Source of the DNA: Synechococcus sp. PROS-9-1
GTDB lineage: Bacteria > Cyanobacteriota > Cyanobacteriia > PCC-6307 > Cyanobiaceae
NCBI RefSeq assembly: GCF_014279775.1
Contig: NZ_CP047961.1
Coordinates: forward strand, 1,922,001 to 1,986,000
DNA length: 64,000 nt
Reading direction: 5' to 3'
Shown here: piece after piece, positions 22,922-27,772 of the stretch
Layout of the letters: each line of letters starts with the position of its first letter
Position numbering within the stretch: position 1 is the first letter of the stretch
Notes under the pieces: generated by a model
Database searches by the model: none
Told to the model about the DNA's origin: nothing
Seen by the model: only the letters and a program-made list of their open reading frames with translations
Translations under genes and position numbers: made by a program

Positions 22922-22956
22922 CAGGCGTGGGTTATTTCTGTTGCGACCCACGCCTG
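22922..22956. terminator. inverted repeat between convergent pgm and RND operon
   Basis: Perfect 10-bp inverted repeat (CAGGCGTGGG and CCCACGCCTG) with a 15-nt loop, just past the pgm stop and overlapping the last codons of the small membrane gene on the other strand. Neither side has a T-run, so it may stop or stabilise both convergent messages rather than act as a classic intrinsic terminator. Confidence 0.5.
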
Positions 22957-23213
22957 CCTCGATGGGCATTGGGATGGCGATACACAGGATCAACAGCTTC
23001 TTCCTGGAGTTGACGGGTGGTTTCAATCGCAAAACCAGCGAGTCCAGAGGATGTAATCACCATTAAGTAGAACAAGCGCATCCTGCGGAGATCAATCTCA
23101 GCTGGGGTGTTCTCAATTAAAACCTTCAAGAAATAGGCAATTGCACTGCCGATTGCGAGTCCAACGGCAATTGCTACCAACACTCTTGAGCCACTGAATG
23201 TCTTTTTTGTCAT
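22932..23213 (-). CDS. small two-helix membrane protein coupled to the RND pump gene
   Basis: 93 residues. TM1 is VLVAIAVGLAIGSAIAYFL, TM2 is LFYLMVITSSGLAGFAIE, and a basic C-terminal tail ends HRGRRGSQQK. Its ATG overlaps the pump's stop codon by four bases (ATGA), which indicates translational coupling. Small membrane partners of RND pumps exist (AcrZ of E. coli has one helix), but no similarity to AcrZ is visible here. The function is inferred only from position. Confidence 0.7.
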   Translation of the reverse strand: MTKKTFSGSRVLVAIAVGLAIGSAIAYFLKVLIENTPAEIDLRRMRLFYLMVITSSGLAGFAIETTRQLQEEAVDPVYRHPNAHRGRRGSQQK

Positions 23214-26200
23214 GAGCTCAGCAGAGGATCAGAAGACGGCTTGGCATCGGCCTGGCCTAGAAGCGTCTTCATCACCACGTAAAACACAGGAACCACAAGC
23301 GTGGAGAGGAACGTGGCAACCAAGAGGCCACCAAACACAACCAAACCAAGAGAAGACTGACTTTGAGCACCAGCTCCACTCGCCAGCATCAAGGGCAAAA
23401 ATCCTGTTAAAGACGAAATCGCTGTCATCAGAATCGGCCGTAAGCGAGATTGGGCAGAAAATCGAGCAGCTTCAAGGGCTGAAATGCCCTCGCCCATTTT
23501 TTGGTTGGCAAGATCCACAATCAAAATCGCGTTACCACCGGCCAAGCCGATAAGCATCACAAGACCCACCTGGGCATAAATATTGAGAACCTGACCGGCA
23601 GCACCAAGAAAGACCAAGGCGCCAAGCAAAGCAGTTGGGACCGTCAGCAAAATGATGATGGGATCTGAGTAGCTTTCATATTGCGCTGAAAGCACCAAGA
23701 ACACCGCCAAAATGCCAAGAGCAAAAATCACAACGGCCAAGGATCCGGCCTTCACTTCTTCTCTTGAAATACCAGTCCAATCAAAGCCCAAGCCTTGCAA
23801 GTTGGCATCTTTAAAGATCGTCTTCATCGCTGTAATCGCCTGACCTGAGCTTTTACCAACAGCAGGTGTTCCATCAATCTTGATTGAACGATAGAGATTG
23901 AAGTGAGGAATCACGCTGGGGCCATTGGTGGACTTCACCGTGAAAAACTCAGACAAGGGGATCTGTTCCCCTTTCATGCTGTTCACATAAACCGCTGAAA
24001 GCTGCTCAGGAGTAGCCCGGTTGACATCATCAGCCTGCACATAGACACGTCGAACCTTGCCCTCCTGGAACGTGTCATTCACATAGGCCCCACCAAAATT
24101 AACGCTAAAGGATTGCATCGCGGCGCCAAAATCAACTCCTAAAGAGGCCATCTTTTCGCGATTCACCTTGATCTCAATCTGAGGTGACTCTGGTGAGAAC
24201 AAGGTATAGACACGGTTCAGCAATGGATTGGCGTTGGCCGCCTGCATGATCTGACCAGCAGAACCAAAGAATTGGTTCAATCCATAGGCTCCACTGCTTT
24301 GATCCAACAACTGGAATTCAAAGCCACCACCAGCGCCATAACCAGGAATCGAGGGAGGCTCCACCACAAACACTCGAGCACCATCAATCGACATCAACAG
24401 TTTTTTGTTCAAGCGTTCAACAATCGCCGCTACAGAGTGATCGCTTCCTTTGCGCTCATCCCAATGCTTGGTTCCAAAGAAGAACAATCCTTTGTTTGGA
24501 GCATTTCCGTCCAAACTGGCTCCACTAAACAAGGCAGCAGCGGAAATATCATCCTCAGATCGCAACACCTCAGCCACCTTGCGGTTAATCGCAAGGGTCG
24601 TCTCGTTCGAAACACCATCAGGAGCCTGCACGAAACCAATGGCATAACCCTGGTCTTCGATCGGAACAAATCCACCGGGGATGCGTGTGAACGCAAAACC
24701 AGTGAGCAGGATTCCAGCAGCAAGGGCCGCCATCACGATCGGGCGAGCTTTAAGCACCTGATCAAGAACTTTCGAATAGCGCTTTTCAAAGCCTGAATAA
24801 AAACGATTGAAGTGAATGAAGATCTGAGGAACAAACCAGCCCACAACAAGACCGATTCCCGTGAACAAGATCACAGGGATGAGATTGGTCACACCAACAA
24901 GAATCAAACCCACAACGGCTCCACCCACAGCTCCTGGCATCCGCAAAGGAATCGATGTGAGCTTCATCGCAACAAAGCCAACCAAGGCGCCAACAACAAC
25001 TGGAATCAGAACCAATGCGGCGCCATCGCCCGCACTGAGAAGGCCGTAGGCAAAACCAAGAAAAACACCCGCTGTGGCGTATTGCTGTTTGCTCAGCTGC
25101 TGTGTGTCCTTCGACAGCAAGAGGGCCGCCAGCATTGGCGAGAACGTGAGTGCGTTGAAGGTTGAGATCCCGATCGAGAACAGGATGGTGGCAGCAAACT
25201 GCTTATAAATCGTTCCTGTTGCTCCGGGGAAAAACAACACCGGAAGAAAAACGGCCATCTTCACCAGCGACGTCGCAATCACAGCGCTGAAGAGTTCGTC
25301 CATGGTGGCGATGGCCGCCTGAACCGATGTCATTCCTTCTGCTTTTTTGGCCGACGTGTCTTCGACCACCGTGATCGCATCATCAACAACCAAACCTGTT
25401 GCCAGAACAAGGCCAAACAAGGTGAGCTGATTAAGGGAGAAGCCGAAGGCGAGCACGAGAGCGAACGTACCGATCAAGGCCACAGGAATGGCGATGGCAG
25501 GAACAAGCGTTGCTTTCCAGTTCTGAAGGAATAAGAACAGGATCAAGACCACCAGAATCACTGCGTCCCGCAGAGAATTGGTCACGCCCTTGATTGATTG
25601 GTTGATGAAATCAGTCGTGTCGTAAATCACCTGGGTATCAAGACCAACAGGAAGCGTCTGCTCAAATTTCTCGATCACCTCCTTCACGCCGTTAGACACT
25701 TGAATGGCGTTACTACCTGACAGCTGATAAACAGCAACACCAACAGAAGGTGTGCCCTTGAGATCCATTGCGTCGACCCCATAGGCCTCTCCACCCAGAC
25801 TCACGCGACCAACGTTTTTTAGCTTGATCAAACCACCCGAATCGGTCGTTTTTAAAATAATATTTTCAAACTCAGATTCCGTGGTTAAACGACCTTGCAA
25901 TTGCACAGTAAATGTATATTGCTGACCTTCAGGAGCAGGAGCACCTCCGATCTTGCCCGCAGGGACTAGGCGGTTTTGACTCTGAAGTTGCTGAACAACA
26001 TCAGTTGAGGTAAGACCATTTGCCGCGAGCTTTTCCGGATCGAGCCATAACCTGAAAGCAACCTTACGGTTGCCAAAATAGGTAACTTCTCCAACTCCAG
26101 GGACGCGCTTAATATTATCAGTTAGATTTTTATCTAAATAGCCACTAATCGTTTCAACGCTGTATTCAGTTTTAGAAGGATCACTGTTAACAATATTATA

Positions 26201-26623
26201 AACAAGCAGGGTAGAGTTTGAGGCTTTATTAACTGTGACGCCCGCCTTGCGAACCTCCTCAGGAAGCTGAGGTTCGGCCAAAGAGACCCTATTTTGAACA
26301 TTAACCTGGTTAATATTACCGTCAGTTCCACTGTCAAAGGAGACAGAAATAGAACTCACACCATCAGACGAGCTGTTGGAGGTAATGAAATCCATATTCT
26401 CCACACCATTAATCTGCTGTTCAAGAACAGTGGTCACACCCTGCTCAACCGAAACAGCATCAGCTCCTACATACGTGGCCTGTACTTTGACCGTTGGAGG
26501 GGCAATGTCGGGAAGATTCTCAATCGGGAGGATTGGAATTGCAATCAATCCCACGATCACAATCAAAAGGCTGCAAACGGTACTAAGAACCGGTCGCGTG
26601 ATGAAATTATTCGATGCTGACAT
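23210..26623 (-). CDS. RND-family (HAE1/AcrB-like) efflux transporter, atypical
   Basis: 1137 residues, about 90 more than AcrB. TM1 is near residues 11-30, the porter domain follows, and TM4 has the proton-relay pair LVVDDAITVVED (Asp414/415). TM11 keeps RLRPILMT. Two oddities are visible. Residues about 504-603, after TM6, form an extra, largely hydrophobic stretch that looks like several added membrane helices. The TM10 motif reads GLAGGNAILIVD, so the essential Lys of AcrB (K940, motif AKN) is Gly1030. It is co-transcribed after the adaptor gene, 9 bp apart. It probably exports drugs or metabolites through a TolC-type channel. Confidence 0.92.
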   Translation of the reverse strand: MSASNNFITRPVLSTVCSLLIVIVGLIAIPILPIENLPDIAPPTVKVQATYVGADAVSVEQGVTTVLEQQINGVENMDFITSNSSSDGVSSISVSFDSGTDGNINQVNVQNRVSLAEPQLPEEVRKAGVTVNKASNSTLLVYNIVNSDPSKTEYSVETISGYLDKNLTDNIKRVPGVGEVTYFGNRKVAFRLWLDPEKLAANGLTSTDVVQQLQSQNRLVPAGKIGGAPAPEGQQYTFTVQLQGRLTTESEFENIILKTTDSGGLIKLKNVGRVSLGGEAYGVDAMDLKGTPSVGVAVYQLSGSNAIQVSNGVKEVIEKFEQTLPVGLDTQVIYDTTDFINQSIKGVTNSLRDAVILVVLILFLFLQNWKATLVPAIAIPVALIGTFALVLAFGFSLNQLTLFGLVLATGLVVDDAITVVEDTSAKKAEGMTSVQAAIATMDELFSAVIATSLVKMAVFLPVLFFPGATGTIYKQFAATILFSIGISTFNALTFSPMLAALLLSKDTQQLSKQQYATAGVFLGFAYGLLSAGDGAALVLIPVVVGALVGFVAMKLTSIPLRMPGAVGGAVVGLILVGVTNLIPVILFTGIGLVVGWFVPQIFIHFNRFYSGFEKRYSKVLDQVLKARPIVMAALAAGILLTGFAFTRIPGGFVPIEDQGYAIGFVQAPDGVSNETTLAINRKVAEVLRSEDDISAAALFSGASLDGNAPNKGLFFFGTKHWDERKGSDHSVAAIVERLNKKLLMSIDGARVFVVEPPSIPGYGAGGGFEFQLLDQSSGAYGLNQFFGSAGQIMQAANANPLLNRVYTLFSPESPQIEIKVNREKMASLGVDFGAAMQSFSVNFGGAYVNDTFQEGKVRRVYVQADDVNRATPEQLSAVYVNSMKGEQIPLSEFFTVKSTNGPSVIPHFNLYRSIKIDGTPAVGKSSGQAITAMKTIFKDANLQGLGFDWTGISREEVKAGSLAVVIFALGILAVFLVLSAQYESYSDPIIILLTVPTALLGALVFLGAAGQVLNIYAQVGLVMLIGLAGGNAILIVDLANQKMGEGISALEAARFSAQSRLRPILMTAISSLTGFLPLMLASGAGAQSQSSLGLVVFGGLLVATFLSTLVVPVFYVVMKTLLGQADAKPSSDPLLSS

Positions 26624-26632
26624 GAATCAACC

Positions 26633-27772
26633 TCAGTTCTTAGCTGCAGCAGGTTGTGACCCCGCGCGCTGTGTTTTTACCTGAATCGGCATTCCATGCT
26701 TGAGATTGAGGAGATTACTTGTAATCACCTTCTCATTGAGTTTCAGACCTTTTGTAATTGGATAACGGTTGTTCTGAATCTCACCAATCTTGACTGGTGT
26801 TTGAAGCGCAAACAGGGCATTTTCTGGCAATTTCCCCCTTTCGATGCCTTTACTAATCCGCTCAATGTCAGCCTTGCCTGGATTTGCCTTTAAGTCGGTG
26901 AAATTACCAATACGAAAGACAAAGCTTTGCCCTGAAGTTTGCGTCACAGCCGCAAATGGAACTGAGATCTGTTGACCCGATTTCAATTGAACCCTGGTCC
27001 GCAGTCGCTGACCACTACGTAGCCTGCCATCATCGTTATTAAATAAGGCCTTCACCAAGAGACCCTGAGTTTGAGGGTTGACTTGAGGATCAATCGACTC
27101 AATCTGACTCGTCGCTAGAGGCTTAACCGTGCCAGGCACACTCAAAATGACGGGTTGACCGATGGCGAGACGATCGCCATAGACCGCCGGAACTTCAACC
27201 TTCGCCTCGAGAATATTATTTTGAACCACACTGGTGAAGGGCTGGTTTTGTTGCACCACATCCCCAACATTCACCTGAATGTCTGCCACGGTCCCTGCGG
27301 TTGGTGAACGCAAATTGCTGTAGGTGAGCTCTGCTTCTAAAGCTTTAACTTTTTCAATAGCTGCAATGTATTTCAGGCGGTAAGAGTCCCGCTGCCGCAG
27401 CGAAGCAGCCCCCTCTTTTGCGAGAAATTCTTCGCGCTCCCAGTCAACTTTGGCTGTTGCCGCTCTCGCCCGTTGTTCTGCCAACGCCGCCCTTGCCTGA
27501 ACCTGGTCCAACACGACGAGCAACTGACCCGCATCAATACGATCGCCCTGAGACACTTTGAGCTCAGTGACACGACCTGATGTTTGCGCAGCTAGCTCAA
27601 CCAACGTATTGGCCTCGAGCGTGCTCACCGTATCGATATCGTCAGTGAAGGGAGCTTCAAGAACCGATGCTTGCTGGACCGGTAGCGCGGGCCTCTTTTC
27701 ATCAGAGCCTCCACAAGCACTAACGGAAATTGCGGTTAGGAGCACAGGCAGCAGTGGACGAAAACGCAGCAC
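26633..27772 (-). CDS. RND efflux periplasmic adaptor (membrane fusion) lipoprotein
   Basis: 379 residues from GTG 27772. The lipoprotein signal peptide ends at the lipobox VSAC, followed by GGSDEKRP. The order is lipoyl half-motif (SGRVTELKVSQGDRIDAGQL), a helical hairpin of about 55 residues (RAALAEQRARAATAKVDWER), the second lipoyl half (LRSPTAGTVADIQVNVGDVV), a beta-barrel and a membrane-proximal domain (GLKLNEKVITSNLLNLKHG). It bridges the inner-membrane pump and an outer-membrane channel. It is the first gene of the operon and diverges from the RarA fusion gene. Confidence 0.94.
   Translation of the reverse strand: MLRFRPLLPVLLTAISVSACGGSDEKRPALPVQQASVLEAPFTDDIDTVSTLEANTLVELAAQTSGRVTELKVSQGDRIDAGQLLVVLDQVQARAALAEQRARAATAKVDWEREEFLAKEGAASLRQRDSYRLKYIAAIEKVKALEAELTYSNLRSPTAGTVADIQVNVGDVVQQNQPFTSVVQNNILEAKVEVPAVYGDRLAIGQPVILSVPGTVKPLATSQIESIDPQVNPQTQGLLVKALFNNDDGRLRSGQRLRTRVQLKSGQQISVPFAAVTQTSGQSFVFRIGNFTDLKANPGKADIERISKGIERGKLPENALFALQTPVKIGEIQNNRYPITKGLKLNEKVITSNLLNLKHGMPIQVKTQRAGSQPAAAKN

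Follow-up and report, generated by a model that had tools for sequence, protein, structure and literature searches.

In AcrB of Escherichia coli, the lysine of the proton relay (Lys940) lies in repeat R2 of the pump and the Asp pair in repeat R1, TM5 being part of R1 and TM10 part of R2, and the bond between Lys940 and the Asp pair belongs to the inter-repeat lock (PMC4359379). Lys940 is regarded as essential and near-universal in the relay. The K940A mutant is inactive in proton translocation and in efflux (PMC4359379), and Arg is the only replacement encountered in a survey of 135 pumps, where it occurs in three of them (PMC8300642). The same survey found L449 of TM5 to be highly conserved and the flanking V452 and P455 to be invariant (PMC8300642), which makes the latter two residues anchors for the alignment of TM5. 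Crystal structures of AcrB with pyridylpiperazines place the charged piperazine between TM4, TM5 and TM10 (PMC8749003). This inhibitor cation is salt-bridged to D408 and ringed by D407, K940 and L449 (PMC8749003, PMC13139501, PMC10897476). It takes the place normally held by the K940 amine; the pocket in which that amine meets Asp407/408 is lined by Leu449 (PMC8749003).

We analysed a 64,000-nucleotide stretch of the Synechococcus sp. PROS-9-1 chromosome (the window), in which an RND pump of 1137 aa was read and translated (Table 1). The pump matched the NCBIfam model TIGR00915 with 1059.8 bits, above the curated threshold of 940.35, and the Pfam family ACR_tran (PF00873) with 994.5 bits for a cut-off of 28; both matches are broken at an inserted segment. 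It is encoded with a periplasmic adaptor, which scored 184.2 bits against TIGR01730 (cut-off 94.9). An AlphaFold2 model built from a 34-row alignment reached a mean pLDDT of 75 and a pTM of 0.70. This model aligned with AcrD over 981 residues (VIA-align Z 58.8, rmsd 2.1) and with AcrB at Foldseek TM scores of 0.83 and 0.91, and the predicted fold is AcrB-like over nearly the whole chain. The 2.27 Mb PROS-9-1 genome encodes two further full-length HAE1-like pumps, both with the canonical Lys at 940. Where named, close relatives of the pump belong to Synechococcus; that of WH7803 is about 75% identical. We considered whether sync_2766, an RND pump cloned from Synechococcus CC9311 (PMC3744912), is the same protein; it looks different and sporadically distributed, and is apparently another pump because its amplification primer implies a different protein start.

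Table 1. Features of the pump locus, in window coordinates.
Feature	Position	Strand	Evidence
Two-helix protein, 93 aa, conserved partner, overlaps the pump gene by ATGA	22932..23213	-	ORF and downstream profile comparison
HAE1-type RND permease, 1137 aa	23210..26623	-	ORF, Pfam, NCBIfam and structure matches
Leu1094 codon, TM12 (AcrB T1005)	23342..23344	-	Third column separating the K940 and G940 sets
TM11 RLRPILMT with Arg1060 (R971) and Thr1067 (T978), conserved	23423..23446	-	Alignment
Gly1030 codon, TM10 (AcrB K940 site)	23534..23536	-	Alignment, orthologue comparison
Inserted membrane segment, about residues 512-604, four predicted helices	24812..25090	-	Alignment, AlphaFold2
Lys455 codon, TM5 (AcrB L449), proposed relocated relay lysine	25259..25261	-	53/53 G940 pumps have Lys here, 29/29 K940 pumps Leu
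Codons of Asp414-Asp415 (AcrB D407/D408, TM4), invariant	25379..25384	-	Alignment, orthologue comparison
RND periplasmic adaptor (membrane fusion protein)	26633..27772	-	TIGR01730; upstream of the pump, same cluster

The pump was aligned to E. coli K-12 AcrB, which serves as the reference for residue numbering. Asp414/415 correspond to D407/408, Gly1030 to K940, Arg1060 to R971 and Thr1067 to T978. An earlier note on this DNA had reported the open reading frame, its overlap with a small downstream gene, the TM4 Asp pair, the TM11 RLRPILMT motif and a glycine at the Lys940 site. All of these hold, coordinates included, and the alignment places no Lys of the protein at position 940. Orthologues were then gathered from the same family, from the phylum and from named genomes, the contrast between Gly940 and Lys940 pumps being drawn within the pumps that carry the long insert described below. 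At position 449, Lys occurs in 53 of 53 distinct Gly940 orthologues and Leu in 29 of 29 distinct Lys940 orthologues, an association that rests on one or two events, however many sequences are counted. The note had proposed looking for a glycine fixed in a clade with another basic residue nearby; the 53 orthologues and Lys455 in TM5, a residue absent from the note and found in the present follow-up, answer to that description.

Only three of 1130 alignment columns (449, 940 and 1005) share no residue between the two sets, and the change of L449 to K is the only case of a TM helix gaining a charged residue as K940 is lost. Asp414/415, Arg1060, Thr1067 and the Ser481 equivalent are invariant in the 82 orthologues. 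No intermediate, with Lys at both 449 and 940 or at neither, was found among these 82 distinct sequences, for which four genera were searched. The Gly set uses AAG/AAA at Lys455 and GGN at Gly1030 and the Lys940 set CTN/TTG at 449 and AAG/AAA at 940, one or two Gly-set rows that were out of register after masked letters had been dropped being disregarded. At least two base changes are therefore needed at each site. No Lys was found at 449 in AcrB, AcrD, MdtB, MdtC, MdtF and CusA of E. coli or in any other RND pump of the alignment, the comparison beyond cyanobacteria covering some twenty pumps, including those of E. coli K-12 and of plasmids, and one published survey. Since the residue at 940 is Gly in all 53 members of the group, we do not file the pump as a canonical AcrB-type relay: TM10 has neither Lys nor Arg at 940, whereas the Asp pair of TM4 and the Arg and Thr of TM11 are present. 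As for the third column, K940 pumps have Thr at position 1005, where Leu, Ala or Ser stands in the G940 set, so that the TM12 Thr (Leu1094 here) disappears together with the lysine change.

The position of Lys455 beside Asp414/415 is read off AcrB through the TM5 alignment, which is gap-free around 449 (SLVKMAVFLP in the pump, AMVLSAVFVP in AcrB). L449 lines the site of the Lys940 amine in AcrB, and a Lys at 449 would therefore set its amine in or beside that site. Our main reading, to which we give a probability of roughly 0.7, is a functional exporter driven by the proton motive force in which the relay lysine would have been relocated from TM10 to TM5, as suggested by sequence comparison and by analogy with AcrB. 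K940G would have removed the Lys of TM10 and L449K supplied one on TM5, the present Lys455, whose amine would reach Asp414/Asp415 from the pocket's other wall. The charge compensation provided by Lys455 would keep the pump active, with H+ as the presumed coupling ion and the Asp414/415 pair retained as the acids. The Lys-Asp contact would now lie within R1. With the lysine on TM5, the Lys-Asp bond between R1 and R2 would thus be gone, and locking would rest on the contacts of Thr1067 and Arg1060. The relay would appear not to have been lost but rewired. In the open-access literature we found no precedent for a relay lysine placed on a different helix, which is not proof of absence. The covariation could also be read otherwise, with Lys455 making no contact with the Asp pair and the association reflecting shared ancestry and an unrelated change, for example at 1005. 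The small number of events, one or two, and the covariation of 1005 speak for such a coincidence. We consider it improbable, as one of the two columns covarying with 940, out of 1130, is precisely a site that lines the K940 pocket, and the change there is from Leu to Lys inside a membrane helix.

The named G940 sequences come mostly from marine Synechococcus, and in a main tree built without the insert and without columns 449, 940 and 1005 the Gly940 pumps fall in marine Synechococcus lineages. In the best tree the Lys940 pumps of a small genus are placed next to the WH7803-like group (93/88), which requires 449 and 940 each to have changed twice in parallel. A single Gly940 clade is not rejected (p-AU 0.097), and a simpler first tree of 81 rows left one and two origins undivided. 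One G940 group has Ala or Ser at position 1005 and the other has Leu, a pattern which fits two origins without proving them. On our main reading, the lysine would have moved from TM10 to TM5 once or twice in marine Synechococcus. It is possible, and we put it forward tentatively, that the transfer took place twice in parallel in this lineage, yielding pumps with acids and lysine in R1 and coupling without a Lys-Asp inter-repeat lock.

The pump is under strong purifying selection, its dN/dS ratio being about 0.03-0.05 in most G940 comparisons, with one outlier pair at 0.20, and all 24 near-complete genomes of the genus contain its gene; the pump is therefore not decaying. The small genomes (1.5-1.8 Mb) of one other group of the same family gave no pump match. 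A protein that had become uncoupled or had lost transport, kept for another role and with Lys455 acquired by drift, would agree with the inactivity of AcrB K940A in proton translocation and efflux (PMC4359379). It is very hard to reconcile with purifying selection on the whole protein, with the presence of the gene in all these genomes and with the invariance of Lys455 and of every other relay residue, and we regard it as highly unlikely. A switch of the coupling ion, for instance to Na+, with the lysine shift tuning the Asp pair accordingly, deserves somewhat more attention. It is conceivable in the Na+-rich sea inhabited by most of the named G940 strains, and binding of either H+ or Na+ has been described for the transmembrane domains of RND proteins (PMC8277102). 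Nevertheless, both Asp residues, the equivalents of Arg971 and Thr978 and one Lys are retained, and K940 is kept in the two further pumps that PROS-9-1 encodes. We judge such a switch unlikely.

The earlier note had also pointed to a largely hydrophobic stretch after TM6 (about residues 504-603) that AcrB lacks. This insert is real: about 85 extra, hydrophobic residues lie between TM6 and helix I-alpha, and the linker between AcrB positions 498 and 540 measures 124-126 aa in the long-insert family. The same linker has 43 aa in AcrB, and 36-47 in nearly all the cyanobacterial pumps examined that do not belong to this family. The AlphaFold2 model contains four extra helices in the insert (512-530, 535-556, 561-576 and 582-625, the last continuing into I-alpha), at a modest pLDDT of about 54-78, which would bring the pump to a predicted total of 16 membrane helices. 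No conserved charge was found within the insert helices across the aligned orthologues, and most comparisons show weaker constraint on the insert (dN/dS about 0.05-0.19) than on the pump (about 0.03-0.05). The long insert also occurs in 29 distinct orthologues that keep Lys940, and is common in Cyanobium-like genomes. Other Cyanobiaceae pumps carry a shorter two-helix insert, all with Lys940 where the region is present. The insert thus comes in two forms, with linkers of about 76-82 aa (two helices) and 124-126 aa (four helices). The two halves of the long insert are each other's best non-overlapping match within the pump (hhalign probability 49%), which is suggestive of a duplicated hairpin. 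HAE1 pumps from Bacteroidales metagenome-assembled genomes also have a hydrophobic insert in this position between TM6 and TM7 (linker 113 aa), dissimilar in sequence and with two apparent helices, so that membrane insertions at this point arose more than once.

The small gene that overlaps the pump stop codon (ATGA), as the note had described, encodes a two-helix protein without a match in Pfam or NCBIfam. By profile comparison, this protein is found downstream of 77 of the 79 long-insert pumps with enough downstream sequence, and downstream of short-insert pumps in seven of seven cases in one group and six of ten in the other. It was found after none of 24 insert-less Lys940 pumps by the same profile, some of which are followed by other two-helix-like small ORFs. 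Its conserved positions, in the numbering of the aligned stretch, are G12, P27, E54, R57-Q58-L59-Q60 and Y68. The suggestion that it is an accessory subunit of the pump is possible. It is a poor candidate as the source of the insert, the profile comparison giving probabilities of only 5-8%. A tie to the lysine change was rejected, the protein following both kinds of pump.

One might have expected the four-helix insert or the two-helix partner to supply a new proton path or charge that makes Lys940 dispensable, as both adjoin the membrane domain and are present in essentially all G940 pumps. However, both are equally present in the K940 orthologues. The same insert in 29 such orthologues, and a partner that accompanies K940 and G940 pumps alike, mean that neither feature explains the missing lysine, and the insert cannot be taken as a replacement of the relay. 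The insert helices moreover lack a conserved charge, and constraint on the insert is mostly weaker than on the pump itself. There is very little to be said for this explanation. Insert and partner are separate, older features that predate the lysine change, and are probably structural elements involved in packing, or regulatory ones. The earlier note had joined the three features in a single module, which does not survive the finding of insert and partner next to a canonical K940. Its further suggestion of a different proton pathway is better replaced by the same Asp pair served by a lysine from another helix.

A lineage with its lysine on another helix would represent a natural charge-swap experiment. 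It makes testable whether the lysine must bridge the two repeats, as in the engaged/disengaged model (PMC4359379), or whether any charge beside the Asp pair suffices. It also bears on the pyridylpiperazine inhibitor pocket, where the cation lies next to position 449. The predicted 16 membrane helices compare with the 12 to 14 usually described for RND pumps (PMC8277102).

The Synechococcus pump shares with AcrB, AcrD, MexB and AdeB a common fold, the 12 core TM helices, the TM4 Asp pair, the TM11 Arg and Thr and an adjacent adaptor gene. In contrast to them, it has a Lys on TM5 instead of TM10, and adds about 85 residues (four predicted helices) and the gene of a two-helix partner. The Bacteroidales HAE1 pumps likewise show two apparent extra helices between TM6 and TM7, but are distant in the tree, differ in insert sequence, keep K940 and have no such partner gene. 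The shorter-linker Cyanobiaceae pumps, such as the paralogue G000:C1:96191-99424, have a hydrophobic two-helix insert in the same place, but their linker is about 76-82 aa rather than 124-126 and K940 is kept. The nearest counterparts are the K940 orthologues of Cyanobium and Synechococcus (for example WH 5701), which have the same four-helix insert and the partner gene at about 64-72% identity, and which differ in having kept K940, L449 and Thr1005.
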